From Crocinitomicaceae bacterium (GTDB lineage Bacteria > Bacteroidota > Bacteroidia > Flavobacteriales_D > Crocinitomicaceae), in contig JABURP010000022.1 in assembly GCA_014762645.1 (NCBI GenBank), forward strand, positions 1 through 64,000: a DNA stretch of 64,000 nt. The letters run 5' to 3'. A model generated the notes under the pieces. The model saw nothing but the letters and a program-made list of their open reading frames with translations. It ran no database searches and was not told the origin of the DNA. This document shows, in pieces, positions 8,866-24,465 of the stretch; position 1 is the stretch's first letter; the number at the start of each line of letters is the position of its first letter. The translations under genes were made by a program, and so were the position numbers.

Positions 8866-10389
8866 TTATATCTCTGCCATATTCAACTCCAACAACTCCT
8901 CCATCAATTCCCGATTATTGTTCAACCGTGGAATTTTATGCTGACCTCCGAGTTTGTTTGAATTTTTTAGCCATCCATCAAAAAGACCTTTTGATGCTAC
9001 CGTGACTTTTGGCATGCTCAATGAAAGGTTACCACTACGTTTAGCTTCATAATCTGAGTTCAGAGCCTTTAATTCTCCATCCAGAATATGTGTGAAAGCC
9101 TCAATATTTTCAGGTAATGTCTTAAACTCAATTAACCATTCATGACCGCCACTTTCCTGACCCTCCATATAAATGGGTGCTGCGGTATAGTTAGAGATTT
9201 CAGCTTTTGATTTTTTACAGGCCTCCGCTATAGCTTGCTCAGCATTTTCTACCACCAATTCTTCACCAAATGCATTAATAAAACTCTTGGTGCGTCCGGT
9301 AATCTTGAAACGATAAGGTGATTTACAAGTAAACCGAACAGTATCTCCAATGATATATCTCCATAACCCTGCATTCGTAGAAATAACGAGTGCATAATTT
9401 TTTCCGAGTTCCACTTTTTCCAAAGGAATAACTGTTGCTGAATTTGTACCATCAAAATCCGACATAGGAATGAACTCAAAGAAAATTCCATAATCCAACA
9501 TCAGCAATAATTCGTTCTTCTTAAAATCATCCTGAATTCCGAAAAAACCTTCAGAGGCATTATAGGTTTCTACGTAGTTCATGTCATCAAACGGGATCAA
9601 TTTTTGAAATTGTTCGCGATAAGGTTCAAAGCTCACTCCCCCATGCATAAACAGCTCCAGGTTGGGCCATACTTCCCTGAGGTGATTCTTACCGGTAATT
9701 TCTAATATGCGATTACACAAAACCAACATCCAACTAGGCACACCTGCAATTATGTATATATCCTGATCTTTGGTTTTTTGAGCGAGTTTCTCAATTTTCT
9801 CCTCCCAATCACTCATTAAGGCAATTTCTTTACTTGGTGTACGCCGTATTTCTGCCCACCAGGGCATATTTTTCAGGATAATGGCAGAAAGATCCCCGAA
9901 ATAAGAATCTCTACTCAAATTGGTGATTTCAGCTGAACCACCGAGTATTAAATGTTTGCCCTTATACAACTTCCGGTCTGGTAACTGGTTGTAATACAGA
10001 CTTAACAAGTCTTTTCCTCCCTTGTAATGGCAATCTTCAAGTGCTTCTTTTGATACAGGAAGAAACTTGGACTTCCCCGTAGTTGTTCCCGAAGATTTAG
10101 CAAACCAGTTAATTTCTGATGGCCATAAAATGTTTTGCTTTTTATCCTTTAACATTTTGTCAATGTATGGCCTAAGTGTAGGATAGTCAGTTAACGGCAC
10201 CTGATTATGAAAATCCTTATATACCTTGATTTTATCAAAGCGATATTTCTTCCCCCATTCCGTTTCTTTGGCTGTTTCAACCAAATTACGCAAGACATCC
10301 CACTGAACATCAATTGGGTACTTCTGAAAAAGCTCAATTTGATGTAAACGCTTTTTAATTATCCAGGAAAAAATTGAGTTAAATGGCAT
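8866..10389 (-). CDS. GH3-family acyl-adenylating enzyme
   Basis: Member of the GH3 superfamily of ATP-dependent acyl-acid-amido synthetases. In plants these adenylate carboxylic acids such as indole acetate or jasmonate and attach amino acids; bacterial members have unknown substrates. The 507-residue length is normal. The ATP/AMP-binding motif SSGTTTGKSK lies at residues 99-108, a TYNASEG-type second motif near 278, and a WRYIIGDTVRF third motif in the second half. There is no signal peptide. The gene stands alone between a convergent operon and a small membrane-protein gene, so context says little about its substrate. Confidence 0.85.
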   Translation of the reverse strand: MPFNSIFSWIIKKRLHQIELFQKYPIDVQWDVLRNLVETAKETEWGKKYRFDKIKVYKDFHNQVPLTDYPTLRPYIDKMLKDKKQNILWPSEINWFAKSSGTTTGKSKFLPVSKEALEDCHYKGGKDLLSLYYNQLPDRKLYKGKHLILGGSAEITNLSRDSYFGDLSAIILKNMPWWAEIRRTPSKEIALMSDWEEKIEKLAQKTKDQDIYIIAGVPSWMLVLCNRILEITGKNHLREVWPNLELFMHGGVSFEPYREQFQKLIPFDDMNYVETYNASEGFFGIQDDFKKNELLLMLDYGIFFEFIPMSDFDGTNSATVIPLEKVELGKNYALVISTNAGLWRYIIGDTVRFTCKSPYRFKITGRTKSFINAFGEELVVENAEQAIAEACKKSKAEISNYTAAPIYMEGQESGGHEWLIEFKTLPENIEAFTHILDGELKALNSDYEAKRSGNLSLSMPKVTVASKGLFDGWLKNSNKLGGQHKIPRLNNNRELMEELLELNMAEI

Positions 10390-10819: not shown

Positions 10820-13195
10820 ATGAAGAAATTATACCTCGCACTAGCAGCAATTTTTATTTTTTCCCTTCAAAACTGGGCTCAACTTACGTGGAGTCGCGTT
10901 AAAGTCTATGGTTCAGAACAAGAACTTCAACAATTAGGAGACCTGGGATTACCTGTAGATCACGGGGAGTATAAAAAAGACACTTATTTTATGACAGACC
11001 TATCCAGTGCGGATATCGCTAAGCTGGATGCCAATGGTTTTACGTATGACATTGTTATAAAGGATGTTAAAGCGTATTATGTACAACAAAATACAACTGC
11101 AGTTTCTGGTTCTGAAAATGACAGAGCCGTTTGTCCAACCTCTGGCGGAAATAATTACAATCCGGTAACTCCCGCCAATTTTCAATTAGGCACCATGGGC
11201 GGTTTCTATAAGTATCAGGAATTTTTGGATGAACTTGACTCTATGTACTCAAAATATCCAAATATTATTTCGCAAAGAGCCCCCATTAGCACATTTACAA
11301 CGATAGATGGAAATCCTATTTACTGGTTGCGGATTTCTGATAACCCAACAGTAGATGAGGCAGAAGAAGAAGTGTTGTACACCGCATTACATCATGCCAG
11401 AGAACCGGCAAGTTTATCACAGCTAATTTATTACATGTGGTACGTACTTGAAAACTATGGCACAGACCCGGAAATTACCTATTTGGTAGATAACACCGAA
11501 ATGTACTTCGTTCCCATGATCAATCCGGATGGGTACCGACACAATGAGCTGACAGATCCAAACGGTGGAGGTATGCACCGTAAAAACCGCAATCCAATTA
11601 GTGGTGGTGGAAACAACTTAGGGGTCGACCTGAACCGTAACTATGGTTATCATTTTGATTCTTCAGGAACTTCCATGGATCCGGCTAATGACACCTGGCC
11701 AGGAACAAATGAATTTTCAGAAATTGAAACACAAGCCATGAAGTGGTTTGTTTTACAACACGATTTCAAATTTGCATTCAACAACCACACCCACGGAAAT
11801 TTGTTGCTTTACCCTATTGGTTGGGCCAGTAATGAATTTGCGCCACATCACTCGTATTTCGACTCTTTTACCGCATATATGGTTAAACACAATGGCTACG
11901 CAAATATGAAATCTTCAGGTTTATACCCTGCATCCGGAGATTCTGATGACTGGATGTATATTGATGAAATAGGAATGAATGGTAAGGATACAATTTTTGC
12001 CTTGACACCGGAGGTTTCCAGTGAAGGCACCTGGAATGATTTCTGGCCTTCATCCAATTCGATTGAAGGAATTTGTAAGGCCAATATCCACATGAATTTA
12101 ACACTTTCACACATGCCGCACGTGTTTGGGGTGGCTACTGATCTTGAAGCCGATAAAATAGATGCCTCTACGGGGTATTTTTCTTATGATTTAGAAAGAT
12201 TAGGGTTAACAGCCGGAGCAATTACCGTTAGTATGACACCTGTTGCAGGCATTCAAACTATGGGGTCCGGTAATACACACAACCTGAACATAATGGAAGT
12301 GGCAGAAGATTCGATTTCATACACACTTAATAGTGGTATTGGCTTTGGAGATGATATCATTTATGTTATTGAAACCAATAACGGTTCATGGACACGGATG
12401 GATACCATATATAAAACGTACGGAAGTGGAACACAAGTGTTTTTTGACGATTGCAGCAATACAGACAATTGGACCGGTTCATGGAGCTTTACCAATGAAG
12501 ATTTCTATTCACCGAGTAACTGTATTACAGACAGCCCTTTTGTCGACTACTCTAATGGAACCAATTCCAGCATGGAGTTGAATCAACCGCTCTCGCTTAC
12601 AAATGCAACGTATGCTTACGTAACCTTTTGGGCGAAATGGGAAATTGAAGACAACTGGGATTATGTTCAGTTTATGGCCTCTACAGATGGTGGAACAACC
12701 TGGGTGCCGCTTTGTGGCAACTACACCAATATGGGAGGAAGTAATCAGGATTTTGACAACCCTTTATACGACGGTTTTCAAACTTCATGGGTACAGGAGA
12801 GTATAGATCTTGCAGACTATCTTGGAAACAGTGATGTACTATTAAAATTTAGATTGATTTCAGATGGCGGGGTAAGAGAAGACGGTTTTTACTTTGATGA
12901 TTTCGCCATTTATACGGATGGTGTAGATGATTCTGGTGTAGATGAATTGACCCAAAATGATATTCATATCTATCCAAATCCGGCTAATACTATTATCAAT
13001 TTAAGTGTTGATGAAGAGATTCAGTTATCGCGTATTGAAATAACAAATAACCTTGGACAGTTGGTTACCACAGTTTCTCCAATAAACAATCAGGTTCAGC
13101 TTTCTACAGCTAACCTTGCTGAAGGACTATATTTTGTGACTATATACACGGATAGCAATCAAAGTATTACCAAGCGGGTGAGTATTATGAGGTGA
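10820..13195 (+). CDS. Secreted zinc carboxypeptidase (M14) with T9SS type A sorting domain
   Basis: Extracellular metallo-carboxypeptidase that would trim C-terminal residues from peptides outside the cell. After a signal peptide (1-20, ending NWAQ) comes a pro-region, then the M14 domain at about 125-430. Zinc ligands are visible: His192 and Glu195 in HHARE, and His323 ahead of LLLYP. Substrate-carboxylate residues Asn272-Arg273 (LNRNYG) and the catalytic Glu398 (TPEVSSE) are also present. A jelly-roll domain with a DWNF-like pattern (about 540-705) follows, then a type A sorting domain (about 715-791) with IYPNPAN. At 791 residues it is complete. It is monocistronic with a weak terminator overlapping its stop codon. 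Confidence 0.92.
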   Translation: MKKLYLALAAIFIFSLQNWAQLTWSRVKVYGSEQELQQLGDLGLPVDHGEYKKDTYFMTDLSSADIAKLDANGFTYDIVIKDVKAYYVQQNTTAVSGSENDRAVCPTSGGNNYNPVTPANFQLGTMGGFYKYQEFLDELDSMYSKYPNIISQRAPISTFTTIDGNPIYWLRISDNPTVDEAEEEVLYTALHHAREPASLSQLIYYMWYVLENYGTDPEITYLVDNTEMYFVPMINPDGYRHNELTDPNGGGMHRKNRNPISGGGNNLGVDLNRNYGYHFDSSGTSMDPANDTWPGTNEFSEIETQAMKWFVLQHDFKFAFNNHTHGNLLLYPIGWASNEFAPHHSYFDSFTAYMVKHNGYANMKSSGLYPASGDSDDWMYIDEIGMNGKDTIFALTPEVSSEGTWNDFWPSSNSIEGICKANIHMNLTLSHMPHVFGVATDLEADKIDASTGYFSYDLERLGLTAGAITVSMTPVAGIQTMGSGNTHNLNIMEVAEDSISYTLNSGIGFGDDIIYVIETNNGSWTRMDTIYKTYGSGTQVFFDDCSNTDNWTGSWSFTNEDFYSPSNCITDSPFVDYSNGTNSSMELNQPLSLTNATYAYVTFWAKWEIEDNWDYVQFMASTDGGTTWVPLCGNYTNMGGSNQDFDNPLYDGFQTSWVQESIDLADYLGNSDVLLKFRLISDGGVREDGFYFDDFAIYTDGVDDSGVDELTQNDIHIYPNPANTIINLSVDEEIQLSRIEITNNLGQLVTTVSPINNQVQLSTANLAEGLYFVTIYTDSNQSITKRVSIMR

Positions 13196-13274: not shown

Positions 13275-13943
13275 TTATCCAGAAAATTTGTACCCAACAC
13301 CTTTAATGGTTTGGATAACCGTGTCTCCAAATTTTTCACGTAATTTTCTGACGTGTACATCAATAGTTCGGTCACCGATAACCGTGTCTCCCCAAACATC
13401 ATGTAATATTTCGTCGCGTCTGAATACTTTCTCAGGTGCACTCATTAATAGAGCTAAAAGCTCAAATTCCTTTTTGGGAATTACATGATCAGTGCCATCT
13501 TTCGAAACCAGAAATCGTTCTTTATCAATAATAATATCTGTGTCAACAGTTTCTTTTGGATTTTGAACTCGTTTGCTCAGTACTGAAATTTTATGTTTCA
13601 ATATTTTTATCCGTACCGGTTTCACTACATAATCGTCTCCCCCTGCGTTATAACCTGCAACCTGGGAATAGTCTTCACTTCGTGCTGATAGAAAAATGAT
13701 TATTGTCTTGTTCATTCGGTCCAAACTTCTGATCCGTTCACAGACTTCAATACCATCAATATCTGGCAACATTACATCCAGTAAAATAATATCTGGACGA
13801 TACTTTTCGGCCTTTTCAATAGCCTCAATACCATTGAGTGCTTTATGAACCACCATCTTCTCATTCTCGAAATTATACGCCAGCATTTCTACAATATCTG
13901 GTTCATCATCTACAATCAGTATTTTAAGTCCTTCTAACAACAT
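13275..13943 (-). CDS. PhoB/OmpR-family response regulator (RR1)
   Basis: DNA-binding response regulator of 222 residues. The receiver domain (about 5-120) has the acidic pair in IVDDEPD, the phospho-acceptor Asp in LLDVMLPD, a Ser in LSARSED and a Lys in VVKPVR. The winged helix (about 130-222) ends TIKGVGYKFSG. An upstream TTG would add three residues; the only ATG is at 13943 and I use it. No histidine kinase is adjacent. It is a close paralogue of the regulator at 18556, including a near-identical DNA stretch encoding the C-terminus. The TAAC repeat at 14031-14051 lies upstream, suggesting autoregulation. A phosphate-sensing role is inferred from neighbours. Confidence 0.88.
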   Translation of the reverse strand: MLLEGLKILIVDDEPDIVEMLAYNFENEKMVVHKALNGIEAIEKAEKYRPDIILLDVMLPDIDGIEVCERIRSLDRMNKTIIIFLSARSEDYSQVAGYNAGGDDYVVKPVRIKILKHKISVLSKRVQNPKETVDTDIIIDKERFLVSKDGTDHVIPKKEFELLALLMSAPEKVFRRDEILHDVWGDTVIGDRTIDVHVRKLREKFGDTVIQTIKGVGYKFSG

Positions 13944-14030
13944 TCTCTCCAAAATTTCTTATAAAGTTAGACTCTACGGGGCTTATATTGAGTTTCCAGA
14001 GCGTTATTCTATTATTAATATTATATTGAA

Positions 14031-14051
14031 GTATCGTTAACTAATTGTTAG
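14031..14051 (-). promoter_or_regulatory. PhoB-box-like direct repeat upstream of RR1
   Basis: Reading the minus strand, CTAACAATTAG is followed directly by TTAACGATAC, placing TAAC twice with an 11-base period. The same spacing and core recur at 18467, 21823 and 21971. Eleven-base-spaced repeats are how PhoB and PhoP regulators bind DNA; the site lies about 90 bases before the RR1 start. Confidence 0.4.
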
Positions 14052-14097
14052 AATCTATGACCCTGTTGTTGATTTAAAAGATTTAACAAACTACTCC

Positions 14098-17010
14098 CTA
14101 AAAACTGTATCCTACTTTAATTCTCACCGAGGTACCAGGTGCTAATCGTTGGAAATATTCATCCTTACCCCCGTAAGCATAAAAAACTGATTCTCTTTTA
14201 TCATTAAGTAGATTGGTCACCCTGATGCCTATTTTCCAACGCTGGCTTTCACCAAATGCCTTGTTTAAGTTGCAGTTTAAACTGTGAAAAGGTACCGTAT
14301 ATATGTCAGGTAAATTAGCAATCCCTACGTATTGAAGTGTTCTTCCCTGTACATTATAATAAGCACCAACTTCAAACCCTTTCAAGAAGCCCTCATCACC
14401 ACCATTATATGAAAATCCGGCATTTATAAGATAAGGTGCCTGTCCCGCCATATCACGATAATTACCAATTATTTGACCACTGCGAGCATTATCCATCCTA
14501 CTTTGCTTTTCCGTTGGGCTGAACTTAATGCGTGAATATGTATACGTGACATTTAATGCAAGGCTAAAATTTTTCATTTTCTCACCAAATACACCCAAAC
14601 TTTGTCTCAATTCAAATTCACCACCAAGAACAGTTCCATCACCGACATTTCGTGGCTGAAACGTACCTGGTTGAATTGTATATTGTACTATTTCAATTGG
14701 ATCAAAAAACATTTTATAGAAAGCGGATATGGAAACGGTTTGACCGATTCCATGAAATAGTTCCCATCTTAGATCAAAATTATGAATATCCGTACTTCTT
14801 AAATTTCCATCCCAGTATACAAGGGAATCACCACCACTAGTAAATATATCTGTAAACAAGCCACCAATAAATGTTCGTCCGGTAATTGGGTCATAGATTT
14901 CGGCATAAGAAAGTTCTTTGAACGAAGGCCTTGCAACCGTTTTTCCATAAGAAAATCTTAGATTTTGTTTATCTGAAACCAGATATACTAAATTCAGTGA
15001 TGGAAAAAGTCCGAGGGTTTCAAGAACTTTATCATTTTCCAATACCTTAGTTCCAGTTTGATCCTGTCCGGTATACCGTTGTACAAAATATTCCGATCGC
15101 AGACCGATTGTTGCTTTAAAGCGCTGAGAAGGCCGAATTTCTGTTGATAAATAGGCCCCAGCGTTCATTGCATTTGCTGTAAAGTTGTTAGGATTATCCG
15201 GAATAAACATGACTTCATAAGTTGTCCCTTTGTTAATATCACCATTATAAGGCCATAAATTTTCATCTGACAATAATTCATTAGGATCTCCTGTTGTTGG
15301 GACGCCCCTTAGATTTAACTGGAAATTCCGTATGATGTAATCCCGCTTTTTATAAGAATAAGCCACGCCGAATTTTACATTGGATTTTCTTTCCCACAGC
15401 TTGTAATCCTTTTGCCAATCAAGCCTGGAGGCCAGACTTTTTTCAGTAAGTTCACGCCATATTCTTTCTGGAAATCCGGCTTCAGTTCCGATCAACATAG
15501 AATCTCCCCGAATCTCATATCGCGTAAAACGGATATCGGGATCGTTCATTATTGATAGTGTAGGTGCTACCTTCCATTCGAACTTCCACCCTTTTCCTTT
15601 TTGAAAGAAATCGTGTTTTCCGCCAATGAATACATTTGTCATAGATCGTTGTGTATAAGATAAGTTCGTCTGCGCTCCATTAAAGGTAGATCCCTGGGCA
15701 TAATTATGATATCTATATTCTCCGGCTCGGGATTCACCATTTTGTATATGTAGCATATTAATTACATACTTTGATGTTGTTGTTTTAATTCCTATTCCTG
15801 CCATACCAGTAAGTAGTATATTATTGACCCCATAATTCCCAATCTGATACTCACCAGAATCAAGTGCAGTTGCGGTTGGATCAGGAGAAAGCAGGTATCT
15901 GGCAAACTCGGCATCTTTATAAAATTCGGTGGAGTTTCTATATGAACCTATAACATTATATCCAATAGTGACATTTTCCTTTCTAACTTGATTCCCGAAG
16001 GATCCAGACAGGCTCATATCCATCAAGGACATTTTTTCCATGGCAGCCATTGTAGGATTAAAGCCTCTTAATATATTGCTGTATGTTGCAGAATCTGTCG
16101 GATTGGTATAAGCATCAACATAGGTTGGTATCTGACTATCAGGAATACCTTTTGTCGGGATTTTCCGGGTTCCGTCATCAAACCCTAAAAAATCTGTTTT
16201 GCCTCCTTTATACGTGAGGTAGTCTTTCTGAAAATGAAAGTAAGGATTATAGCCCAACCCTATTGATATATTACGTTGCTGTTCGTCTGGAAAACTTTTT
16301 AATCCAATATCAACAATTCCACCTGTAAAATCGGCGGGTAATTCAGCAATGAATGATTTATTAACAATAATATTGTCCAAAATATTTGTTGGGAAGATGT
16401 CCATTTGTAGAGAATTTCTATCAGGATCTAAACCCGGAATATCCACCCCATTTAAAACCGTCTTGTTATATCGATCTCCCAGACCACGAACGTAAACATA
16501 TTTGCCACCAGATATCGAAACGCCCGGAACACGCCTCATTGCACCCGCAGCATCAGAATCTCCAATTTTTTTGAAATTAGCTGAGGAAATTCCATCAATC
16601 ATATTCGTGGTGGATTTTTTCAATGTAAGCACTGAGTTTTCAGTATTATCCCTTTTCTCTTTTGTTACAACAACTGTCGTCAATGTAGTTGTTGATGCAT
16701 TCATTTGCAGGTTTTCAAAGAGCACTACCTCTCCGGCTGTAACAGTAACTTCTTCAAGAATCAGTGTATCTTTTCCGGTAAAGGCAATTAATACATCATA
16801 CGTTCCTGTTACAATAGATATTGAAAATTTACCATCTAAATCTGTAACTCCACCAACCGGTTGGTCCTTCACTCTTACTTTAGCTCCAATGACGGTTAGG
16901 CCAGATTCACCGTCAAAAACCTGTCCACGAATAATTCCTTTTTCCTGGGAAAATGAGAAAATACCAGCTAAAAGTATGGACTGTATTAGAATAAGATTTA
17001 ATAATCTCAT
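14098..17010 (-). CDS. TonB-dependent outer-membrane receptor with CarboxypepD_reg-like domain
   Basis: Energised outer-membrane transporter. From the ATG at 17010 it has 970 residues; an upstream TTG would spoil the signal peptide MRLLNLILIQSILLAGIFSFSQ. A carboxypeptidase-regulatory-like beta-sandwich (about 25-110, GIIRGQVFDGESG) precedes the plug (about 130-250, with MRRVPGVSISGGKYVYVRG and TVLNGVDIPG), then a 22-strand barrel ending in aromatic residues. The preceding gene on the same strand encodes a beta-helix lipoprotein and is likely its partner and operon mate, with an intergenic hairpin at 17052-17084. The ligand is unknown; placement beside phosphate transporters and boxes suggests phosphate or a phosphorylated compound. 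Confidence 0.9.
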   Translation of the reverse strand: MRLLNLILIQSILLAGIFSFSQEKGIIRGQVFDGESGLTVIGAKVRVKDQPVGGVTDLDGKFSISIVTGTYDVLIAFTGKDTLILEEVTVTAGEVVLFENLQMNASTTTLTTVVVTKEKRDNTENSVLTLKKSTTNMIDGISSANFKKIGDSDAAGAMRRVPGVSISGGKYVYVRGLGDRYNKTVLNGVDIPGLDPDRNSLQMDIFPTNILDNIIVNKSFIAELPADFTGGIVDIGLKSFPDEQQRNISIGLGYNPYFHFQKDYLTYKGGKTDFLGFDDGTRKIPTKGIPDSQIPTYVDAYTNPTDSATYSNILRGFNPTMAAMEKMSLMDMSLSGSFGNQVRKENVTIGYNVIGSYRNSTEFYKDAEFARYLLSPDPTATALDSGEYQIGNYGVNNILLTGMAGIGIKTTTSKYVINMLHIQNGESRAGEYRYHNYAQGSTFNGAQTNLSYTQRSMTNVFIGGKHDFFQKGKGWKFEWKVAPTLSIMNDPDIRFTRYEIRGDSMLIGTEAGFPERIWRELTEKSLASRLDWQKDYKLWERKSNVKFGVAYSYKKRDYIIRNFQLNLRGVPTTGDPNELLSDENLWPYNGDINKGTTYEVMFIPDNPNNFTANAMNAGAYLSTEIRPSQRFKATIGLRSEYFVQRYTGQDQTGTKVLENDKVLETLGLFPSLNLVYLVSDKQNLRFSYGKTVARPSFKELSYAEIYDPITGRTFIGGLFTDIFTSGGDSLVYWDGNLRSTDIHNFDLRWELFHGIGQTVSISAFYKMFFDPIEIVQYTIQPGTFQPRNVGDGTVLGGEFELRQSLGVFGEKMKNFSLALNVTYTYSRIKFSPTEKQSRMDNARSGQIIGNYRDMAGQAPYLINAGFSYNGGDEGFLKGFEVGAYYNVQGRTLQYVGIANLPDIYTVPFHSLNCNLNKAFGESQRWKIGIRVTNLLNDKRESVFYAYGGKDEYFQRLAPGTSVRIKVGYSF

Positions 17011-17051
17011 GGTTTGTTGTTGATTTTTATAAAAAATGTCCGTAATAATCA

Positions 17052-17084
17052 AACTCGCGGGTTCCGATTGGATTCCCACGAGTT
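17052..17084 (-). repeat. Intercistronic hairpin between lipoprotein and receptor genes
   Basis: AACTCGTGGG and CCCGCGAGTT pair over ten positions (one G:U) around a 13-base loop, 42 bases before the receptor ATG. There is no T-run, so it more likely sets relative mRNA levels or stability than ends transcription. Confidence 0.45.
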
Positions 17085-17114
17085 CAATTGTATCTATTCA
17101 CTTATTAGTTAATG

Positions 17115-18395
17115 CTAAAAATTTGACAAGTAATTTTCTGAGTGGATAGCTGTCCAACTCCAGTTGTTAAACGCAGATTTATCCGGACCTACAGTTTGTG
17201 TTCCGAAAGCTGCAGAAGTTACAGCGGCATCTGATCCATTTAAAAAGTAATCTGTAATGCCGTCACCTGCCGGGATATTTGCCTGTAATGAGGTGAATAC
17301 CGGAGCTTCAACCGTTGTGCTTGGTAACTCTGTAAAAACCACTCCATTTGCATACGATCCGGCTGTAAAACCAAACCAATAGATATTATTTAAATTGACA
17401 TTTGTATTTGCATCCGTATCTCCCAACTCCGAACCACCTTCAATATTGATTCCACCATTTCGTAATGTATGATTTCCATTACCGAGATCAACTCCTTCAG
17501 GGCCATCAAGTTCCATGGCTGCATCTCCGGCATTAATAACAATGAAATTATCTATTGTTCCTGAATAACCCTGATCAGTATCAAGAGCATCATCTCCAGT
17601 ATTAAGAATAACAACGTCAGTTACATTTACTGTTCCTCCAAAAAATTCAATTCCGTCATCCTGATTCGAAACAATCTCAATATGATCGATTGTTGTGCCA
17701 GAACCAACTCCGCCAAGCGTTAATCCGTTAATTTCATTTCCATCACCAATATTTGCACCACCGTGCCGAATTGATACATATTGAATTACACCTGAATTAT
17801 CCAAGTCATCCATTCCTCCATATTTACCATTAGTATCTGAAGCAGGAATACCTTCAATTTGTGCTTCAGTACCTGAAGCTGCTGAAATTTTTGCGTTTCC
17901 AAGAACAATTAATCCACCCCAAAGACCATTAATATCAGTTGGTAAATTAGGAGACTCAATTTGAGCCGGCTGAATTTCATCCGCAATTGATGTAAATATA
18001 ATTGGCTCAGAAGCTGTACCCTGTGCCAATATTTTTGCTCCTCGCGCAATTATTAGTGCTGTTGCATTAGGTCCTGTCCCTGCTTCACCTTTCACTATTA
18101 CTCCGGGTTCAATCGTTAAGGTTGCTCCTGAGGTTACTACAATCCTATCTGCCAAAATGTAAACTTTTCCGGTTTCCCATGTAATGTTACTCGTAATATT
18201 TTCGGATACAGTAATTACTGATTCATCAACTGGTGCAAATACACAAGGGTTATTAGGATCATCTTTTTTAGCATCAGAGTTGTAATTAAGTGCATTATGG
18301 TCTGTGCAACCTTTTTTACAAGAAGTAAGCACAATTGTTAATCCACAAAAAACAACTGTGATTACCAATATCAAATTCTTTCTCATTTTTTTCAT
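17115..18395 (-). CDS. Beta-helix-like surface lipoprotein, partner of the TonB receptor
   Basis: A 426-residue predicted lipoprotein starting at the ATG at 18395. The signal peptide runs to the lipobox LTSC and is followed at once by a GCTDHNALNYN segment, a Ca-binding-like motif common in Bacteroidota surface proteins. The rest has recurring short strands rich in Gly, Asn, Asp and Ile (for example IIARGAKILAQGT, DGIEFFGGTVNVTDV, GDDALDTDQG), as in right-handed parallel beta-helices. No catalytic residue is evident. It precedes the TonB receptor on the same strand, an arrangement common in Bacteroidota nutrient-uptake loci. Three tandem 11-base repeats resembling a Pho box lie 70-105 bases upstream, so phosphate control is plausible. 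Confidence 0.75.
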   Translation of the reverse strand: MKKMRKNLILVITVVFCGLTIVLTSCKKGCTDHNALNYNSDAKKDDPNNPCVFAPVDESVITVSENITSNITWETGKVYILADRIVVTSGATLTIEPGVIVKGEAGTGPNATALIIARGAKILAQGTASEPIIFTSIADEIQPAQIESPNLPTDINGLWGGLIVLGNAKISAASGTEAQIEGIPASDTNGKYGGMDDLDNSGVIQYVSIRHGGANIGDGNEINGLTLGGVGSGTTIDHIEIVSNQDDGIEFFGGTVNVTDVVILNTGDDALDTDQGYSGTIDNFIVINAGDAAMELDGPEGVDLGNGNHTLRNGGINIEGGSELGDTDANTNVNLNNIYWFGFTAGSYANGVVFTELPSTTVEAPVFTSLQANIPAGDGITDYFLNGSDAAVTSAAFGTQTVGPDKSAFNNWSWTAIHSENYLSNF

Positions 18396-18466
18396 TTTAT
18401 CAATTTGATACAAAGGTCGATCAGAAATTCCGCGAAGGTGTTAGCGTGGTTTTATAAATGGATTAT

Positions 18467-18499
18467 TAAATCGTTAATGAGATTTAACCTTTGCATAAC
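18467..18499 (-). promoter_or_regulatory. Triple 11-base repeat (PhoB-box-like) before the lipoprotein-receptor operon
   Basis: On the minus strand three contiguous 11-mers read GTTATGCAAAG, GTTAAATCTCA and TTAACGATTTA. The third shares TTAACGAT with the RR1 site. Their end lies about 70 bases upstream of the start at 18395. Confidence 0.4.
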
Positions 18500-18555
18500 A
18501 TACGTTTGAAGGTCAAGAATAAAGGAAACTCTAATTCTCAAGGATGATCAAGACT

Positions 18556-19251
18556 TTATTGAATAAATTTGTACCCAACACCTTTAATGGTTTGGATGAC
18601 GTCATCACCAATTTTTTTACGAAGTTTTCGGATATGTACATCTATGGTTCTGTCACCAACTATGACATCTGTACCCCACACACGCGTCATTATTTCGTCG
18701 CGTTTACAAACTTTTCCGGCATTTTCCATCAACAGTGCCAGCAACTCAAATTCTTTTCTAGGAAGGGAGAGCTCTTCTCCATTTTTGAAAACCGTATAAC
18801 TATCCAAATTAATTTCAATATTGGACGTAGACGGTGACTCTTCGTTTCCTACTGCCTGCTTATCGTGGTTTTTCAATTTACCATGTCTTCTGAGCATGGC
18901 GGCAATCTTACTGAGAAGAATTTTCGGTTTAACCGGTTTTGTAATGTAGTCGTCCGCTCCGGCATTGAACCCTGCAAGCTGTGAGTAATCTTCTCCCCTT
19001 GCTGTTAGCATACATACAATCGAGTCCTCTAACACACGCTTTTCTCTCAGTTTTTCGCATGTTTCTACACCGTCCATTCCGGGCATCATCACATCTAACA
19101 GGATAAGATCAGGGTGTTCTTTAATAGCTACTTCAATTCCAGATTTTCCGTCTTCTGCCTCAATTACCTGGTAACCTTCTTTTTCCAGATTATACCGAAG
19201 CAGTACGCGAATATCTACTTCATCATCAATTATGAGAATTTTTTGTTGCAT
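18556..19251 (-). CDS. PhoB/OmpR-family response regulator (RR2)
   Basis: A 231-residue response regulator from the ATG at 19251 (an upstream TTG would add ten residues). The receiver (about 3-118) has IIDDEVD, the phospho-acceptor Asp in LLDVMMPG, and a Lys in ITKPVKP. A charged linker of about 20 residues leads to the winged helix, which ends TIKGVGYKFIQ and contains DRTIDVHIRKLR, the recognition-helix region shared with RR1. It matches Bacteroidota regulators annotated PhoB. No kinase gene is in the window, so its partner must be elsewhere. chrA lies 58 bases upstream on the same strand, so the two may share a transcript. Confidence 0.9.
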   Translation of the reverse strand: MQQKILIIDDEVDIRVLLRYNLEKEGYQVIEAEDGKSGIEVAIKEHPDLILLDVMMPGMDGVETCEKLREKRVLEDSIVCMLTARGEDYSQLAGFNAGADDYITKPVKPKILLSKIAAMLRRHGKLKNHDKQAVGNEESPSTSNIEINLDSYTVFKNGEELSLPRKEFELLALLMENAGKVCKRDEIMTRVWGTDVIVGDRTIDVHIRKLRKKIGDDVIQTIKGVGYKFIQ

Positions 19252-19309
19252 GACTAAAATCGGCAGTCTAAAAATAGTCAATCTTATTTATAAAGCGGCT
19301 TAGATAATT

Positions 19310-20470
19310 CTAAATAAATCCAAGTACATAGCCCATGATCGCACCTCCGATTATTGTCCAGATGGCATTGGACTTTTTAATAAGAAAGGTACTCATCAGA
19401 CTCATAGTTAATATTACGACTGCTTTCCAGTTTACTGCTGTTTCCATGGTCATAAAAATCAGGACTACAATCATTATGCCTACCGCACCGACATTCACGG
19501 CATCCAGGAAATAACCGAGCACTTTTGATTTTCTCATTCTCGGGATGAGCGGATTAAGGAAAAGTACGAACAGGAAAGAGGGTAAAAAGATTCCGGCTGT
19601 TGCAGCAATTGCTCCCCAGAAACCATCCAATTGATAACCAATAAATGTTGCCGTTGAAAGTACCGGTCCCGGAGTAAATTGCCCAACTGCAATTGCATCC
19701 AGCAACTGCTGACGGGTTAACCAACCAGCATCCACCAATTCTGCATCTAAATAGGCAAAAAGTACATATCCACTTCCGTACAAGATGGCTCCTACTTTAA
19801 GAAAAGTTAAAAAGACTGACAGAGTTCCCAAACTGGTTGCAGCTTTGCCCGAAGAGCTCACCAATAAAAAGGGCCAAAGAATTTTTTTGGTAGGATTAGA
19901 TGATGAACCAGATACCACATTTTTTAAAGTAAAATAGAGCATTCCTATTACGCCGGCTGCCAAGAGTGCAACAACTTCATTCAATCCAAGGATCCCCGCG
20001 GCAATTACCATTCCGCCGAGTATGCCTAGTTCTATATTTTTCAGCGCCTTTTTTCCCAGCTTGATTACTGCTGCCAGAATTATGGAAAGTACTGCCGGTT
20101 TAACACCAAAGAAGAATGGTTCTACCTGAGGTAAAGAACCATATTCAACATAAATCCACGCAAAAATCCCTGTAATAAGCACAGCGGGAAAAATAAAGCA
20201 TGCCCCAGCAACAAAAAGACCTTTCCAACCAGCGCGCTCATGCCCGCAATGCATAGTCATTTCTGTTGAGTTAGGTCCCGGAATAAGATTGGTAGCACCC
20301 ATCAGGTCCAAAAAATGATCTTTGGTCATCCACTTTCTCTTGCTCACCACTTCTTCCTCCATCATTGCAACATGAGCTGCAGGGCCACCAAAAGCAAAGC
20401 AGCCGAGTTTAAAAAAAACTGCGGCTACTTCGCGTAATCTGTTATTTGGTTTGTTTGCTTTTGGCTTCAT
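19310..20470 (-). CDS. chrA: ChrA-family chromate/anion transporter
   Basis: Inner-membrane protein of the CHR superfamily, 386 residues, the two-domain long form. Both halves carry the family pattern: FKLGCFAFGGPAAHVAMMEEE near 17-37 and FLKVGAILYGSGYVLFAYLD near 224-243, each followed by a segment containing Pro-Gly-Pro (LIPGPNSTEM, FTPGPVLST). About ten hydrophobic helices are visible. Known members export chromate, an oxyanion analogue of sulfate. It is embedded between a phosphate-type regulator and an anion-selective porin, so it might move another oxyanion here. That idea is inference only. Confidence 0.9.
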   Translation of the reverse strand: MKPKANKPNNRLREVAAVFFKLGCFAFGGPAAHVAMMEEEVVSKRKWMTKDHFLDLMGATNLIPGPNSTEMTMHCGHERAGWKGLFVAGACFIFPAVLITGIFAWIYVEYGSLPQVEPFFFGVKPAVLSIILAAVIKLGKKALKNIELGILGGMVIAAGILGLNEVVALLAAGVIGMLYFTLKNVVSGSSSNPTKKILWPFLLVSSSGKAATSLGTLSVFLTFLKVGAILYGSGYVLFAYLDAELVDAGWLTRQQLLDAIAVGQFTPGPVLSTATFIGYQLDGFWGAIAATAGIFLPSFLFVLFLNPLIPRMRKSKVLGYFLDAVNVGAVGIMIVVLIFMTMETAVNWKAVVILTMSLMSTFLIKKSNAIWTIIGGAIMGYVLGFI

Positions 20471-20518
20471 CTAGTTCCTAGCATAACCGTCAAAAACATG
20501 AAATGTTCTAGCCATGCT

Positions 20519-21754
20519 TTAAAAATGTAAATCCATCTGTACTCTCCAGTATAATTTATCGTCACTCCCCTGATTAGGAGCAGTTGAACCATATACATAG
20601 CGTTGTCTATAATTTATATCCGTTTGCACTTTTAACTTGTGACCTACAAAATATTTTGAAAAGCCGATACCGTATTCATTTTCGTTTGCAGCTACCCCAA
20701 AATCCGGTCGATTTGATGTCATTCTGAGTGCTATCTCGTAATTACTGTTAAATAGATACCCTGCCTGAACATTAAGTGCCTGACCGGTATAGAAAGTACC
20801 AACCTGAATCCCGTTATCATCATATACATTGTAATCCCCATCTTCAGTTTGTTTATTGGCATATTCTGCCATTACAGAAAATCCTTTGTATTTGAACATT
20901 AAATCAGCAAAAACGGTGTATAGTGTTTTACCGAAATAATCTCCGTTCGAATCCTGAATAAAATCACCCAGTTGACCTCTTTCACGGATGGCATTGTCAT
21001 TAATATCATAACTTACTCCTATTGCCAATTTAGGTTTTTGCTCTCTTTTTAAATCAACATTAACATAATCACCTTTGGATTGAAACTTACCAAAAGGCAA
21101 GAACTCAATACGGAAAGTATAATCAAAACCTCCGTTGTATCCTGCGGTGATATCACGACCCTCTCCCTGGCTTAAGGATGCATATTCTTTAATATAGAAG
21201 TTCTTACCAAGGGTCATGTGATGGGTAAGCATCAATCCAAAGTCACGATCAATATTATAACGGCTGTTTAACCTGGATCGATCTACAAATTGTAAATTAC
21301 CAGAAGAGACTACTCGCTCCCGGTTACCCGGTAATTTCCCCTGACCAATTCTCAATGCAAAATTTCCTGCAAAGTTCCAATCTGCCCATGCATCTAGTAT
21401 TATACGAGCCACGTTTCTGTGCTCTGGCGTATCACCACCACTGATATCTCGGTTAGATAGACCCAACTCTACTTTCCATTTCAACTTTGGTGTGAACGCA
21501 AACCCGTTCCACTTAAGTCGTGCCCTTCTAATTAAAAAATTAGCATCATAATCTTCTATTCTGGACAGATCATCATCTTCAACTGTCCATTCATTTGAAA
21601 ATAGATTTTGGAAGCGCATTCCGAACTTCATGTGAAAAGAAGAGTCTTTTCCATATATGTGCAGACCTTTACCAAAACTATACTCGGAAAGTTGTGCTTG
21701 AGCCGTTAAGGTTGTAATTATGAGAAATGAGAGTAGTAAAATTCGTTTCATCAT
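20519..21754 (-). CDS. Phosphate-selective porin O/P-like outer-membrane protein
   Basis: A 411-residue outer-membrane beta-barrel with a clear signal peptide (MMKRILLLSFLIITTLTAQAQ). The early segment HMKFGMRFQNLFSNEW and the following RRARLKWNGFAFTPKLKWKVE strands are typical of the OprO/OprP family, whose lysine/arginine-lined pore passes phosphate or pyrophosphate. The C-terminus ends in an aromatic-rich strand (WRVQMDLHF) as expected for barrel insertion. Many Bacteroidota members of this family lie in phosphate-starvation loci. The gene is divergent from the Na/Pi cotransporter, and a weak TAAC-type 11-base repeat (21823-21844) lies upstream. Confidence 0.82.
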   Translation of the reverse strand: MMKRILLLSFLIITTLTAQAQLSEYSFGKGLHIYGKDSSFHMKFGMRFQNLFSNEWTVEDDDLSRIEDYDANFLIRRARLKWNGFAFTPKLKWKVELGLSNRDISGGDTPEHRNVARIILDAWADWNFAGNFALRIGQGKLPGNRERVVSSGNLQFVDRSRLNSRYNIDRDFGLMLTHHMTLGKNFYIKEYASLSQGEGRDITAGYNGGFDYTFRIEFLPFGKFQSKGDYVNVDLKREQKPKLAIGVSYDINDNAIRERGQLGDFIQDSNGDYFGKTLYTVFADLMFKYKGFSVMAEYANKQTEDGDYNVYDDNGIQVGTFYTGQALNVQAGYLFNSNYEIALRMTSNRPDFGVAANENEYGIGFSKYFVGHKLKVQTDINYRQRYVYGSTAPNQGSDDKLYWRVQMDLHF

Positions 21755-21822
21755 TAAGAGATTTTAAATGCATATTTGAACACAAAGGTTATACTTAATT
21801 CACATCTATTCATGTTGTTCGG

Positions 21823-21844
21823 GCATTCGTAATAATAATTTAAC
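21823..21844 (-). promoter_or_regulatory. Weak PhoB-box-like repeat upstream of the porin
   Basis: On the minus strand GTTAAATTATT is followed by ATTACGAATGC, giving TTAA and TTAC cores with an 11-base period. It lies in the divergent porin/Na-Pi region. The match is poorer than the site at 21971. Confidence 0.25.
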
Positions 21845-21970
21845 AGTACCGAAAGGTTGACTTAATCTACTTTAAGCTCAAAACCCCTGATTTGTAAGTT
21901 TTAGGAGGAATAAAAGGTGAATCACCAGCTCATTTACCCTCTTTACAATTGAATTTTTAGGTTAATTTTT

Positions 21971-21989
21971 GGTAACACAACGGTAACAC
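21971..21989 (+). promoter_or_regulatory. Exact PhoB-box-like direct repeat upstream of the Na/Pi cotransporter
   Basis: GGTAACAC occurs twice (21971-21978 and 21982-21989) with an 11-base period, the spacing of PhoB/PhoP half-sites. The predicted -7 element (22020) is 31 bases downstream. Confidence 0.55.
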
Positions 21990-22019
21990 TAAAACAAAAT
22001 TTTTATGGTTGGCTTCGTC

Positions 22020-22027
22020 TAAATTTG
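22020..22027 (+). promoter_or_regulatory. Bacteroidota -7 element of the Na/Pi cotransporter gene
   Basis: TAAATTTG matches TAnnTTTG exactly, 26 bases before the ATG. There is no -33 TTTG at the normal distance, as expected for an activator-dependent promoter. Confidence 0.5.
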
Positions 22028-22053
22028 TGTTCAGAAAATTAATCTATGATCGA

Positions 22054-24465
22054 ATGAAAAAACTGATCGCACTTTTTACTTTATCATTACTTATTTTAAA
22101 CCCTATCCTAGCACAAGTTGATGGGGATACATTAACACCGACGGTTGAAACTACATCCATTTCTGTCTTCGAACTGGATTTTGAATTTTCAAACAACAAA
22201 GATTCACTTACACTTGAAGTGTTAGAAACAGGTACCCTGAAATTTACCTGGAAGAACATTAAATCGGGTGATTCTCATGTAGGAATTCGCATAAAATCTA
22301 AAGACTCAACTGACTGGATTTCTGCTGTTGCAGAAATAGGTGCGGGTGAACTCTCCATAAATGATGTCCCGGAAAATCAGATTTGGAATTATCAAATTGG
22401 TACCGGATCAAATCCAAATTCGATTGAATACGCTACAGAAATAAAGGTTTGTCATTCGATCAGTGGAACAATTTTCGAAAATAATTCGGCCAAAGGAAAA
22501 GAAGAAGCCGGTCAAATTTCCTGGGCCATTGCTCCCAACAAATTAAAGGAGATATTAGAAGTTTATCCGGATGCCACTTACTCTTTAAAGTGGAATACCA
22601 AGATAGGTGCAAAACGTAACAAAGCGGATCCGGCTAAATCTCCATGGGGTCATAAGGATAAACTAGATATCAATACGGTAAGTCATAAAGTTAAAGACCT
22701 TATCGGAGGAGATAAATATGTGTACAAGGTAGGAATCAACCTGGGGGATAAAACCATTTGGTCGGAGAAAGGGAAATTTGAAACCGAACGCGCATGGGGA
22801 TTATTCAGGTTGCTCGTATTAATTGGTGCGCTTGGTTTGTTCATCTTTGGAATGAAAATCATGTCTGAGGGGCTGCAAAAAGCGGCAGGTTCAAAGCTCA
22901 GAAACATGCTAGGATCTATCACATCTAATCGTGTAAAAGGTGTCATCACTGGATTTGGTATTACATCAATTGTGCAGTCATCTTCTGTTACCACGGTGAT
23001 GACCGTTAGTTTTGTGAATGCAGGATTGATGACACTTAGACAATCTGCAGGAGTGATGATGGGGGCCAATATAGGTACCACGATTACTGCATGGCTCATT
23101 CTTATTTTTGGTTTTAAAGTAAGTATCGGTTCTTACGCGCTAATTTTTATCGCAATTGGTGCTCCTTTGTTGTTCTTTGCCAAAGAAAAGGCAAGAGCCT
23201 GGTCAAGTGCCATTATTGGATTTGCCTTATTATTTATGGGGCTAGGTGCGCTTAAAGACTCTGTTCCTGATTTAGGTCCAGAATCGGCAATTGTTCAGTT
23301 CTTTATTGACTTTAAGGACGTTTGGTATGGCCCATTGATGTTTGTGATTCTGGGAGCCCTTGTTACAGTCGTTATCCAATCTTCTTCAGCTGCAATGGCG
23401 CTTACTATGACTATGGTAGCTGGAGGTGTAATTCCATTTGAAGTTGCTTCAGCAATGATCCTTGGAGAAAACATTGGAACAACCATTACAGCAGAGTTGG
23501 CCTCATTAATTGGTAACGTACATGCCAAAAGGTCGGCAAGAATACATTCACTATTTAATATAATTGGTGTAACCTGGGCCATTTTAATGTTCCCGTTTAT
23601 CCTCAAAGGTCTTGCATTTTTAATTGAAGGCGATCCGTATACAGATGGCAACGCAGCTAATCTAGGTTTAGCCCTGTTCCACTCTTCGTTTAACTTATTA
23701 AATGTTCTGATTTTGATTGGTTTTGTACCATGGTTGGTTAGAATGGCCGAGAAAACTGTGAAGTCCAGAGGAGCGAAGGACGAAGAATTCCACCTGGACT
23801 ATATCACAACAAGCATGATGGGTACGCCAAACTTGTCCATACTTGAAGCGCAAAAGGAGGTTGCCAAATTTGGTGAGATCACCGGACGGATGTCAGGATT
23901 TACAAGAAAACTTCTCACCACCCAAAACAAAAAAGAGAAGAATAAACTTCATGAGAAAATTTCAAAGTATGAAGATATCACCGACCGTGTAGAGATAGAG
24001 GTGGCAAATTATCTGGCAAAACTTTCTGAAGGGGAAATGTCTGAAGAAACAGCCAAACGCGTTCGGTCCATGAATTCCATTGTAAATGATCTGGAACGAA
24101 TTGGAGATATTTTCTATCAAATGTCAAAGGCCATAGAGCGTAAAGATGAACAAAAGCTCTACTTTTTGCCCGAGCAGCGAGCCAAACTCAATGAGATGTT
24201 TGACCTTATTGATCATGCCTTTGAAGTTATGGCGACAAACCTCAGCTCAAGCTGGTCGGCTGTTACTATTGACGAAGCAAAAGCAGCTGAGACGAAGATC
24301 AATAAAATGAGAAACCAGATGAGAAAAGAGTATCTGGGTGATCTACAAAAGAAAGAATTCAACATGGAAAGTGGAATGGTATACAACAACCTTTTCTCCT
24401 CATGTGAGAAAGTTGGAGATCACATTATTAACGTAACGGAAGCAATTCTGGGAATTATCAACTAA
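22054..24465 (+). CDS. Na/phosphate cotransporter with extracytoplasmic N-terminal domain and PhoU-like tail
   Basis: Sodium-coupled phosphate importer of the NaPi-II/YjbB type, 803 residues from the ATG at 22054. The TTG at 22009 would hide the signal peptide (MKKLIALFTLSLLILNPILAQ). Residues 21-245 are a secreted domain that looks like one or two fibronectin-like beta sandwiches, which is not part of the standard transporter. The membrane part (about 250-575) contains the two inverted QSSS motifs, IVQSSSVTTV near 307-316 and VIQSSSAAMA. The C-terminal 200 residues (ERIGDIFYQ, CEKVGDHIINV) form a PhoU-like helical bundle. A PhoB-like box precedes it and a terminator follows. Confidence 0.88.
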   Translation: MKKLIALFTLSLLILNPILAQVDGDTLTPTVETTSISVFELDFEFSNNKDSLTLEVLETGTLKFTWKNIKSGDSHVGIRIKSKDSTDWISAVAEIGAGELSINDVPENQIWNYQIGTGSNPNSIEYATEIKVCHSISGTIFENNSAKGKEEAGQISWAIAPNKLKEILEVYPDATYSLKWNTKIGAKRNKADPAKSPWGHKDKLDINTVSHKVKDLIGGDKYVYKVGINLGDKTIWSEKGKFETERAWGLFRLLVLIGALGLFIFGMKIMSEGLQKAAGSKLRNMLGSITSNRVKGVITGFGITSIVQSSSVTTVMTVSFVNAGLMTLRQSAGVMMGANIGTTITAWLILIFGFKVSIGSYALIFIAIGAPLLFFAKEKARAWSSAIIGFALLFMGLGALKDSVPDLGPESAIVQFFIDFKDVWYGPLMFVILGALVTVVIQSSSAAMALTMTMVAGGVIPFEVASAMILGENIGTTITAELASLIGNVHAKRSARIHSLFNIIGVTWAILMFPFILKGLAFLIEGDPYTDGNAANLGLALFHSSFNLLNVLILIGFVPWLVRMAEKTVKSRGAKDEEFHLDYITTSMMGTPNLSILEAQKEVAKFGEITGRMSGFTRKLLTTQNKKEKNKLHEKISKYEDITDRVEIEVANYLAKLSEGEMSEETAKRVRSMNSIVNDLERIGDIFYQMSKAIERKDEQKLYFLPEQRAKLNEMFDLIDHAFEVMATNLSSSWSAVTIDEAKAAETKINKMRNQMRKEYLGDLQKKEFNMESGMVYNNLFSSCEKVGDHIINVTEAILGIIN

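Follow-up and report, generated by a model that had tools for sequence, protein, structure and literature searches.

The 64 kb window analysed here (contig C116 of a Crocinitomicaceae genome) contains an island of seven consecutive genes in which a TonB-dependent receptor and a surface lipoprotein lie among two PhoB-like response regulators (RR1 and RR2), a ChrA-type transporter, a porin and a sodium-phosphate (Na/Pi) cotransporter. On sequence grounds, it is well supported that this island is a phosphate-control unit with the receptor-lipoprotein pair as a member, because Pho boxes precede some of its genes and its linkage is conserved among relatives. We think it likely that the island is a Pho-regulon unit controlled by a PhoR kinase whose gene lies outside the island, with the PhoU domain fused to the Na/Pi transporter replacing Pst-PhoU. 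An earlier note made from the DNA letters alone had listed seven consecutive genes; all seven open reading frames (ORFs) are present at its coordinates, and Pfam domains could be assigned to six of them. The island has the following features.

13275..13952, minus strand: RR1, PhoB-like response regulator with no adjacent kinase (Pfam Response_reg and Trans_reg_C; placed by tree).
14031..14052, minus strand: weak Pho-box-like direct repeat before RR1 (8.9 bits; by score alone not above chance).
14098..17010, minus strand: TonB-dependent receptor, type A cassette (Pfam plug, barrel and CarbopepD_reg_2; ORF open to 17079, likely start 17010).
17011..17114, minus strand: hairpin between the lipoprotein and receptor genes (-25 kcal/mol, z -4.92).
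17115..18395, minus strand: surface lipoprotein, predicted right-handed beta-helix, lipobox Cys26 (ORF to 18413, likely start 18395).
18483..18504, plus strand: Pho box upstream of the lipoprotein gene (16.7 bits).
18556..19245, minus strand: RR2, PhoB-like response regulator with no adjacent kinase (Pfam Response_reg and Trans_reg_C; ORF open to 19281).
19310..20470, minus strand: ChrA-type transporter (TIGR00937, 302.7 bits against a cut-off of 171.7).
20519..21754, minus strand: outer-membrane porin, Pfam Porin_O_P.
21828..21849, plus strand: Pho-box-like repeat on the porin side (10.9 bits; by score alone not above chance).
21971..21992, plus strand: Pho box before the Na/Pi gene (15.3 bits).
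22054..24465, plus strand: Na/Pi cotransporter with an N-terminal fibronectin type III (FnIII)-like region and a C-terminal PhoU domain (Pfam, TIGR00704; ORF 22009-24465, likely start 22054).

The source genome comprises 4.23 Mb in 128 contigs and is 98.99% complete. Protein families were assigned with the curated cut-offs of Pfam and NCBIfam/TIGRFAM, and profile searches for PstB, PiT and Na_Pi_cotrans covered a sample of 120 genomes of the family. Loci with the lipoprotein came from a scan of GTDB; the 80 named loci are the best of at least 541 confirmed candidates, which favours close relatives in the counts, and some fetched stretches are short, which makes neighbour counts among these loci lower bounds. 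Neighbours of the Na/Pi gene were counted within five ORFs in 29 non-duplicate fetched loci, most of them chosen by their lipoprotein match.

Pho boxes and conserved linkage

Upstream of the lipoprotein gene, relatives carry a direct repeat with a period of 11 bp. In 116 such regions, identical 5-mers recur 120 times at spacing 11 and 77 times at spacing 22, versus 22 in mononucleotide shuffles in both cases. The spacing-11 signal is also seen upstream of Na/Pi (18 versus 3 in shuffles), porin (19 versus 3), RR1-type (15 versus 2) and RR2-type genes (48 versus 9). It is lower upstream of the receptor (23 versus 8), and seven PhoR upstream regions show no excess (1 versus 1). We trained a tandem 11-bp model (22 bp; consensus about YTTAACATW) on 113 lipoprotein upstream regions taken from relatives, excluding the window and two loci of its genus (L033 and L072). 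On the coding strand, the model reaches 9 bits or more in 104 of the 116 lipoprotein regions, 113 of which are the training set itself, as well as in 14 of 17 Na/Pi regions and 10 of 13 porin regions, compared to 9% of 529 other upstream regions.

In the window, a first-order Markov background predicts 0.375 sites of at least 15 bits and 1.25 of at least 13 bits. Two were observed at both thresholds, and both are in the island: the boxes at the lipoprotein and Na/Pi genes. The strand of the box is not strict, as it occurs on either strand in relatives and the box at 18483 points away from the lipoprotein gene. The model search gave no box ahead of RR2 or ChrA in the window, and a generic repeat finder returned only short repeats without a common pattern from the intergenic stretches. 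The earlier note had described shared repeats before four units. This description stands for the strong sites at the lipoprotein and Na/Pi genes, and the number four is reached only when the weak RR1 and porin-side sites are counted.

Among loci fetched after training that hold the Na/Pi gene, boxes of at least 13 bits adjoin it in 10 of 10 (L227-L232, L234, L236-L238), some of these genomes having contributed a lipoprotein region from another place to the training set. Strong boxes also occur at pst genes. In one relative (G037, locus L186), the pst operon consists of PBP_like_2, BPD_transp_1, PstB and PhoU genes, with sites of 23.6 and 18.5 bits before the PBP_like_2 (PstS-like) and BPD_transp_1 (PstC-like) genes; the 23.6-bit box is common with divergent PhoU_div-PHO4 genes. 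At the pst locus of another (G009, L187), numerous sites of 11-23 bits are found between the equivalent ORFs, and most of these ORFs were not family-scanned. The box is similar to the motif TTTAACA reported for PhoP of Riemerella anatipestifer. A literature search, with most subscription journals outside its coverage, found no described Bacteroidota Pho box or Crocinitomicaceae phosphate island, and our model offers a means of looking for phosphate-controlled genes in related Bacteroidota.

Conservation of the linkage is the second support for the island. In 76 of the 80 named loci, a receptor of this type directly follows the lipoprotein gene. Around the Na/Pi gene, 24 of the 29 loci have a PhoB-like gene, 15 the porin and 11 ChrA; the family lipoprotein is present in 21, a count inflated by the choice of most loci for their lipoprotein match. 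Related genomes share, with gaps, the order S41 peptidase - Na/Pi - porin - ChrA - RR2 - [slot] - RR1 - M14 peptidase - GH3, where the slot holds the receptor-lipoprotein pair, and many family members have PhoR-PhoB, lipoprotein-receptor, a second regulator and Na/Pi in their layout. In G013 (L188:5206-16883), a single run contains PBP_like_2 (pstS-like), two ORFs, not family-scanned, where pstC and pstA would be expected, then pstB, phoU, receptor, lipoprotein, regulator and histidine kinase. Loss of this linkage in relatives would have spoken against the earlier note, and the outcome is mixed: there is linkage near the Na/Pi gene, with another receptor-lipoprotein type in the slot of several loci. 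Of the 80 named loci, 26 have a PhoB-like gene in the fetched stretch, and a PhoR-like gene is present there in 21.

Phosphate transport with neither PstB nor PiT matches

The Na/Pi protein scores above the cut-offs for Na_Pi_cotrans (208.5 bits), PhoU (38.5 bits) and TIGR00704 (222.7 against 210.1), and it is the only Na_Pi_cotrans ORF in its genome; the family is found in 54 of the 120 genomes. No ORF of the genome exceeds the PstB cut-off, and in the family PstB passes the curated cut-off in 5 of 120 genomes and E 1e-60 in 9 of 120. As a positive control, the same search was over the cut-off in 13 of 14 known genomes. PiT (PHO4) is likewise not found in this genome; it matches in 74 of 120 family genomes, five of them weakly. 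With the five weak matches dropped, Na_Pi_cotrans alone is present in 46 genomes, PiT alone in 61, both families in 8 and neither in 5, in a sample with some incomplete genomes and no correction for relatedness. Na_Pi_cotrans and PiT are thus nearly mutually exclusive in the family. Na_Pi_cotrans is present with neither PstB nor PiT in 45 of 120 genomes. All four sampled genomes of the genus (93-99% complete) have Na_Pi_cotrans, no PstB at E 1e-60 and no PiT. The bacterium appears to rely on a single sodium-phosphate transporter.

The only PhoU domain found in the genome, in a search that did not extend to PhoU_div or PstS, is the C-terminal one of the Na/Pi protein. The structure model of this protein, built from seven sequences, is of modest confidence (mean predicted local distance difference test score, pLDDT, 67.7). 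Its Foldseek matches to FnIII pairs and PhoU suggest an FnIII-like N-terminus. This region (window 22054-22790) is probably periplasmic, and it is shorter or missing in some relatives. A Na/Pi transporter with a fused C-terminal PhoU domain is also present in Staphylococcus aureus, where the PhoU domain of NptA is reported to repress PhoR at alkaline pH (PMC13170248). S. aureus is described there as having Pst and Pit besides NptA, whereas our genome shows neither PstB nor PiT, and the window protein has the additional FnIII-like region. A genus in which four of four sampled genomes lack PstB and PiT matches offers a setting for studying a fused PhoU domain as a possible sole sensor of phosphate in the absence of Pst-PhoU.

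Two PhoB-like regulators and a distant kinase

PhoB is the top-scoring model for both RR1 and RR2, which have the receiver and winged-helix output domains expected of the two PhoB-like regulators in the earlier note; the name PhoB itself is withheld by the curated cut-offs, which both proteins miss. In a tree of 66 regulators, near-copies included, kinase-adjacent and kinase-less regulators mostly separate (6 and 8 label changes versus about 22 in shuffles). RR2 clusters with kinase-less regulators of its genus, G008 and G011 (four related loci; support 99/91), and RR1 forms a separate group from the same genomes (support 100/100). Ranked by score, the first regulator of the genome after RR1 shares 35% identity with RR2. 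Next to the Na/Pi gene, a second PhoB-like regulator with no kinase adjoining it is a recurrent feature. A 334-residue ORF beside RR1 in G004 was considered as a kinase and rejected, as it has neither a Pfam match nor a match in our genome.

A candidate partner kinase is encoded at a distance. On contig C98 (L083:9036-10076) lies a kinase 55% identical to the PhoR of the clusters, the other matches in the genome being 21-34% identical. It has no regulator beside it, and we take the other ORFs of this stretch to resemble gldD, gldE, ssb and mutY. The window therefore differs from many relatives, in which phoB and phoR are adjacent: it has two PhoB-like genes, with the kinase on C98.

Receptor-lipoprotein cassettes and the intergenic hairpin

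The slot between RR2 and RR1 is occupied by one of two cassette types. In type A, the type of the window, the lipoprotein gene precedes the receptor gene, and in type B the receptor comes first. Type B fills the slot in G004, G031 and G080, for example, G026 has both types, and in G008 an A pair sits between the B receptor and B lipoprotein genes. By locus, type B cassettes were seen at L033, L036, L072, L227-L233 and L235, mostly in the same island slot, with an A pair inside the B pair at L036. The receptor-lipoprotein pair of G013 mentioned above is also closer to type B. In three genomes, A and B lipoproteins are 34-39% identical over 296-315 residues and the receptors 24-28%, compared to 61-72% and 58-72% within A and 59-77% and 57-70% within B, respectively. 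Pairs in the expected order number 103 for A and 10 for B. Order and sequence type disagree in places, because at four loci (L058, L068, L069 and L071) the receptor precedes a lipoprotein scored as A. Type B seems absent from our genome, because the A receptor finds no second receptor above 46 bits there, whereas B receptors give about 190-215 bits with the same query. Because different cassettes replace one another at a constant position, they provide a natural comparison for finding the substrates of receptor-lipoprotein uptake.

The gap between the two genes of the window folds into a hairpin. In a survey of gaps of 60-170 nt with mononucleotide shuffles, in which the duplicate pair L045/L121 was counted, z was below -3 in 67 of 87 type A gaps versus 12 of 100 controls taken from a set of 222 gaps; the single type B gap in this size range had a z of 1.5. 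Stems of at least 12 bp were found in 59 of 86 type A gaps versus 40 of 220 controls, and a T-run followed the stem in 31 of 86 versus 19 of 220. Our simple stem finder gives only 8 bp for the window, where the stem carries an internal bulge. When four gaps were folded against dinucleotide shuffles, the hairpin was present in the window (z -4.92), L033 and L121 and not in L034. The structure is kept across species despite unlike sequences. The hairpin likely acts in partial termination or in protection of the lipoprotein message.

The lipoprotein has no family match in Pfam or NCBIfam, and its profile finds no homologous sequence in the PDB at E 1. Its AlphaFold2 model is a right-handed beta-helix (mean pLDDT 89). 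Foldseek matches are weak, with 3 at E 0.001 or less. Among 50 matches listed, mostly beta-helix enzymes and phage tailspikes, VIA-align Z scores are 19.6-21.8 over 246-287 residues; alginate lyases, C5-epimerases, phage tailspikes and NosD are included. Such similarity of a modelled fold says nothing on function. Across 46 relatives, Cys26 and the Asp/Glu positions 246, 247, 250, 269, 272, 274, 295 and 297 are invariant. Because these acidic residues, by their spacing, fall on successive coils, they may form a metal site, and a site able to bridge phosphate is a reasonable guess.

Comparison with known systems

The earlier note had predicted that the pair imports phosphate or an organophosphate, and had called this a new phosphate-scavenging system in the phylum. 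Membership of the pair in a Pho island is borne out by the Pho boxes and the linkage, while phosphate or an organophosphate is a putative ligand. The novelty does not hold, because a like pair was already published as a phosphate-starvation module in Flavobacterium johnsoniae (Lidbury et al. 2020, PMC8115612), and an ElpS pair was described in Caulobacter (Le Blastier et al. 2010, PMC2996285). Our additions are a setting in which no Pst was found, a slot with different cassettes, an additional regulator and the intergenic hairpin.

As described for F. johnsoniae, PUSIV is a phoBR cluster (Fjoh_0541-0546 and 0549) that combines a receptor with plug and CarbopepD_reg_2 domains, a lipoprotein with a pectin-lyase-like InterPro assignment, PhoB and a Porin_O_P porin (PMC8115612). 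The window resembles it in this content, including a receptor gene adjoining the gene of a lipoprotein modelled as a beta-helix. Under inorganic phosphate (Pi) depletion the F. johnsoniae pair was strongly induced, with table values, which we take as log2, of 8.0 for the receptor and 9.9 for the lipoprotein; iron and nitrogen limitation served as controls, and induction was reported under Pi depletion only. Three low-Pi lipoproteins made up a major share of the exoproteome (PMC8115612). Unlike the window, the PUSIV cluster includes PhoR, and the window adds the second PhoB-like gene, ChrA and the Na/Pi-PhoU protein. The receptor-first order of PUSIV, with the lipoprotein downstream, is found in the type B cassettes of relatives, a likeness by description and not by sequence.

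ElpS of Caulobacter, described together with the receptor CC0171 and with co-occurring elpS and receptor genes, is also a phosphate-starvation outer-membrane lipoprotein encoded beside a TonB receptor, again compared by description. It differs in that its gene is linked with those of type II secretion and the protein leaves the cell, and the Caulobacter receptor is constitutive according to data that its authors mention without showing (PMC2996285). The window pair further recalls SusCD/PusCD systems, which combine a TonB receptor with a surface lipoprotein and are in some cases Pi-induced. However, the window lipoprotein is a predicted beta-helix and not SusD, and its receptor scores 28.3 against a SusC cut-off of 368.25.

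Proposed mechanism and alternative readings

Taking together the computed features (gene content, Pho boxes, linkage, no PstB or PiT match, a single PhoU domain and the hairpin), we propose that the island is activated by low phosphate in this organism as follows. The PhoR encoded elsewhere would phosphorylate one or both PhoB-like regulators, which would bind the TTAAC-type tandem repeats of 11 bp and thereby increase expression of the lipoprotein-receptor, porin-ChrA-RR2 and Na/Pi units, with porin, ChrA and RR2 presumably cotranscribed. The intergenic hairpin may lead to an excess of the beta-helix lipoprotein over the receptor. At the surface, the lipoprotein would capture a phosphorus-bearing ligand for delivery to the TonB receptor. 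Either phosphate or a small ester would then reach the periplasm, also via the porin, whose Porin_O_P score (41.3 against a cut-off of 20.9; no NCBIfam match) makes it a candidate OprP/OprO-type porin, and would enter the cell on the Na/Pi transporter. Finally, the fused PhoU domain may report import and silence PhoR, doing the job of Pst-PhoU. It is tempting to go further and to speculate that the Na/Pi-PhoU protein alone imports phosphate and alone senses its flux for a distant PhoR driving two PhoB-like regulators, that the slot exchanges cassettes under the same switch, each for another phosphorus source, and that the hairpin sets the lipoprotein excess in the lipoprotein-first type. This fuller version is tentative, and we hold it possible rather than probable.

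Several observations weigh against a Pho-regulon island of this kind. In the window, 10 sites at 9 bits and 5 at 11 bits compare to an expected 11.35 and 4.4. Sites below 13 bits therefore do not exceed chance, and the weaker ones carry no meaning on their own. Spacing-11 repeats are also raised before those genes of the loci that were left unassigned (163 versus 74 in 529 regions), so the box is not confined to the island gene set, in regions that divergent neighbours share. The pst loci, seven in all, are not uniformly marked: before pstS of L188 no site reaches 11 bits, L189 has one of 15.9 bits, L190 has boxes of 11.6 and 12.3 bits before its first ORF, and L191 and L192 have none at the operon start; L188-L190 have their own regulator-kinase pair. 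A strict box pattern gave 31 matches in our genome versus 52 for the reversed control, that is, no enrichment, and among 30 genome matches inspected only the two island sites combine a promoter position with at least 15 bits. No regulon beyond the island is shown in this genome. Both regulators fall below the curated PhoB cut-offs (178.8 and 210.3 bits for RR1 and RR2 against 296.2 for TIGR02154; 165.8 and 209.1 against 270), and Pst and PiT are called absent on the basis of profile searches in an assembly of 128 contigs. In the F. johnsoniae cluster, the porin was reported as not induced (-1.3, false discovery rate 0.25), and the receptor gene there precedes the lipoprotein gene, opposite to the arrangement in the window (PMC8115612).

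Two further matches from the genome inspection were rejected. The highest-scoring of the additional ones (19.4 bits, L214/L224) is located where two convergent ORFs end, at their 3' ends, and another, of 15.4 bits, is internal to an ORF. At seven others, the scanned downstream genes include no phosphate family.

The pair could instead be a glycan or metal importer that merely lies beside Pho genes, its beta-helix being related to a polysaccharide lyase or hydrolase. Most of the listed structural matches are indeed polysaccharide lyases, epimerases and phage tailspikes, the F. johnsoniae authors proposed plant glycan binding or hydrolysis (PMC8115612), and the fetched stretch has no PhoB-like gene in 54 of the 80 named loci. 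Yet the box precedes the lipoprotein gene in most regions, hence in most of the regulator-less loci too, the like pair of F. johnsoniae responded to Pi depletion only, and the lipoprotein matches no solved protein by sequence at the threshold used. We regard this reading as unlikely. A little more can be said for a lipoprotein that activates a secreted phosphatase, as proposed for ElpS, with the receptor importing the released product. ElpS overexpression raised phosphatase activity in the supernatant while ElpS itself was inactive (PMC2996285), and the F. johnsoniae authors report 31-36% identity to ElpS over 50-54% coverage of FI-FIII (PMC8115612). None of the seven island genes encodes a phosphatase by Pfam, however, and the window lipoprotein is likened to ElpS by description only, which leaves activation rather doubtful.

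The role of the Na/Pi protein could also be a different one, namely phosphate export or regulation alone, with import left to a transporter that escaped recognition. The Na_Pi_cotrans-PhoU protein YjbB of Escherichia coli is reported to be an exporter, which counts for this view. The near-exclusivity of Na_Pi_cotrans and PiT in the 120 genomes is what would be expected if either replaces the other for import, and we consider export or regulation alone the least probable of these alternatives.

Neighbouring genes

ChrA lies near the Na/Pi gene at L056, L059, L070, L147, L227-L229, L231, L232, L236 and L237. Because it recurs within five ORFs of this gene in 11 of the 29 loci, it may handle an oxyanion linked with phosphate uptake.

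Beside the island lie a GH3-like gene (window 8866-10389), which reaches 426 bits with the OlsH ornithine-lipid model (cut-off 620), and an M14 peptidase gene (window 10820-13195) of the type IX secretion system (T9SS) kind. No site above 9.7 bits in the Pho-box model was found near either of them in the window. Both genes also border the island in a number of relatives.

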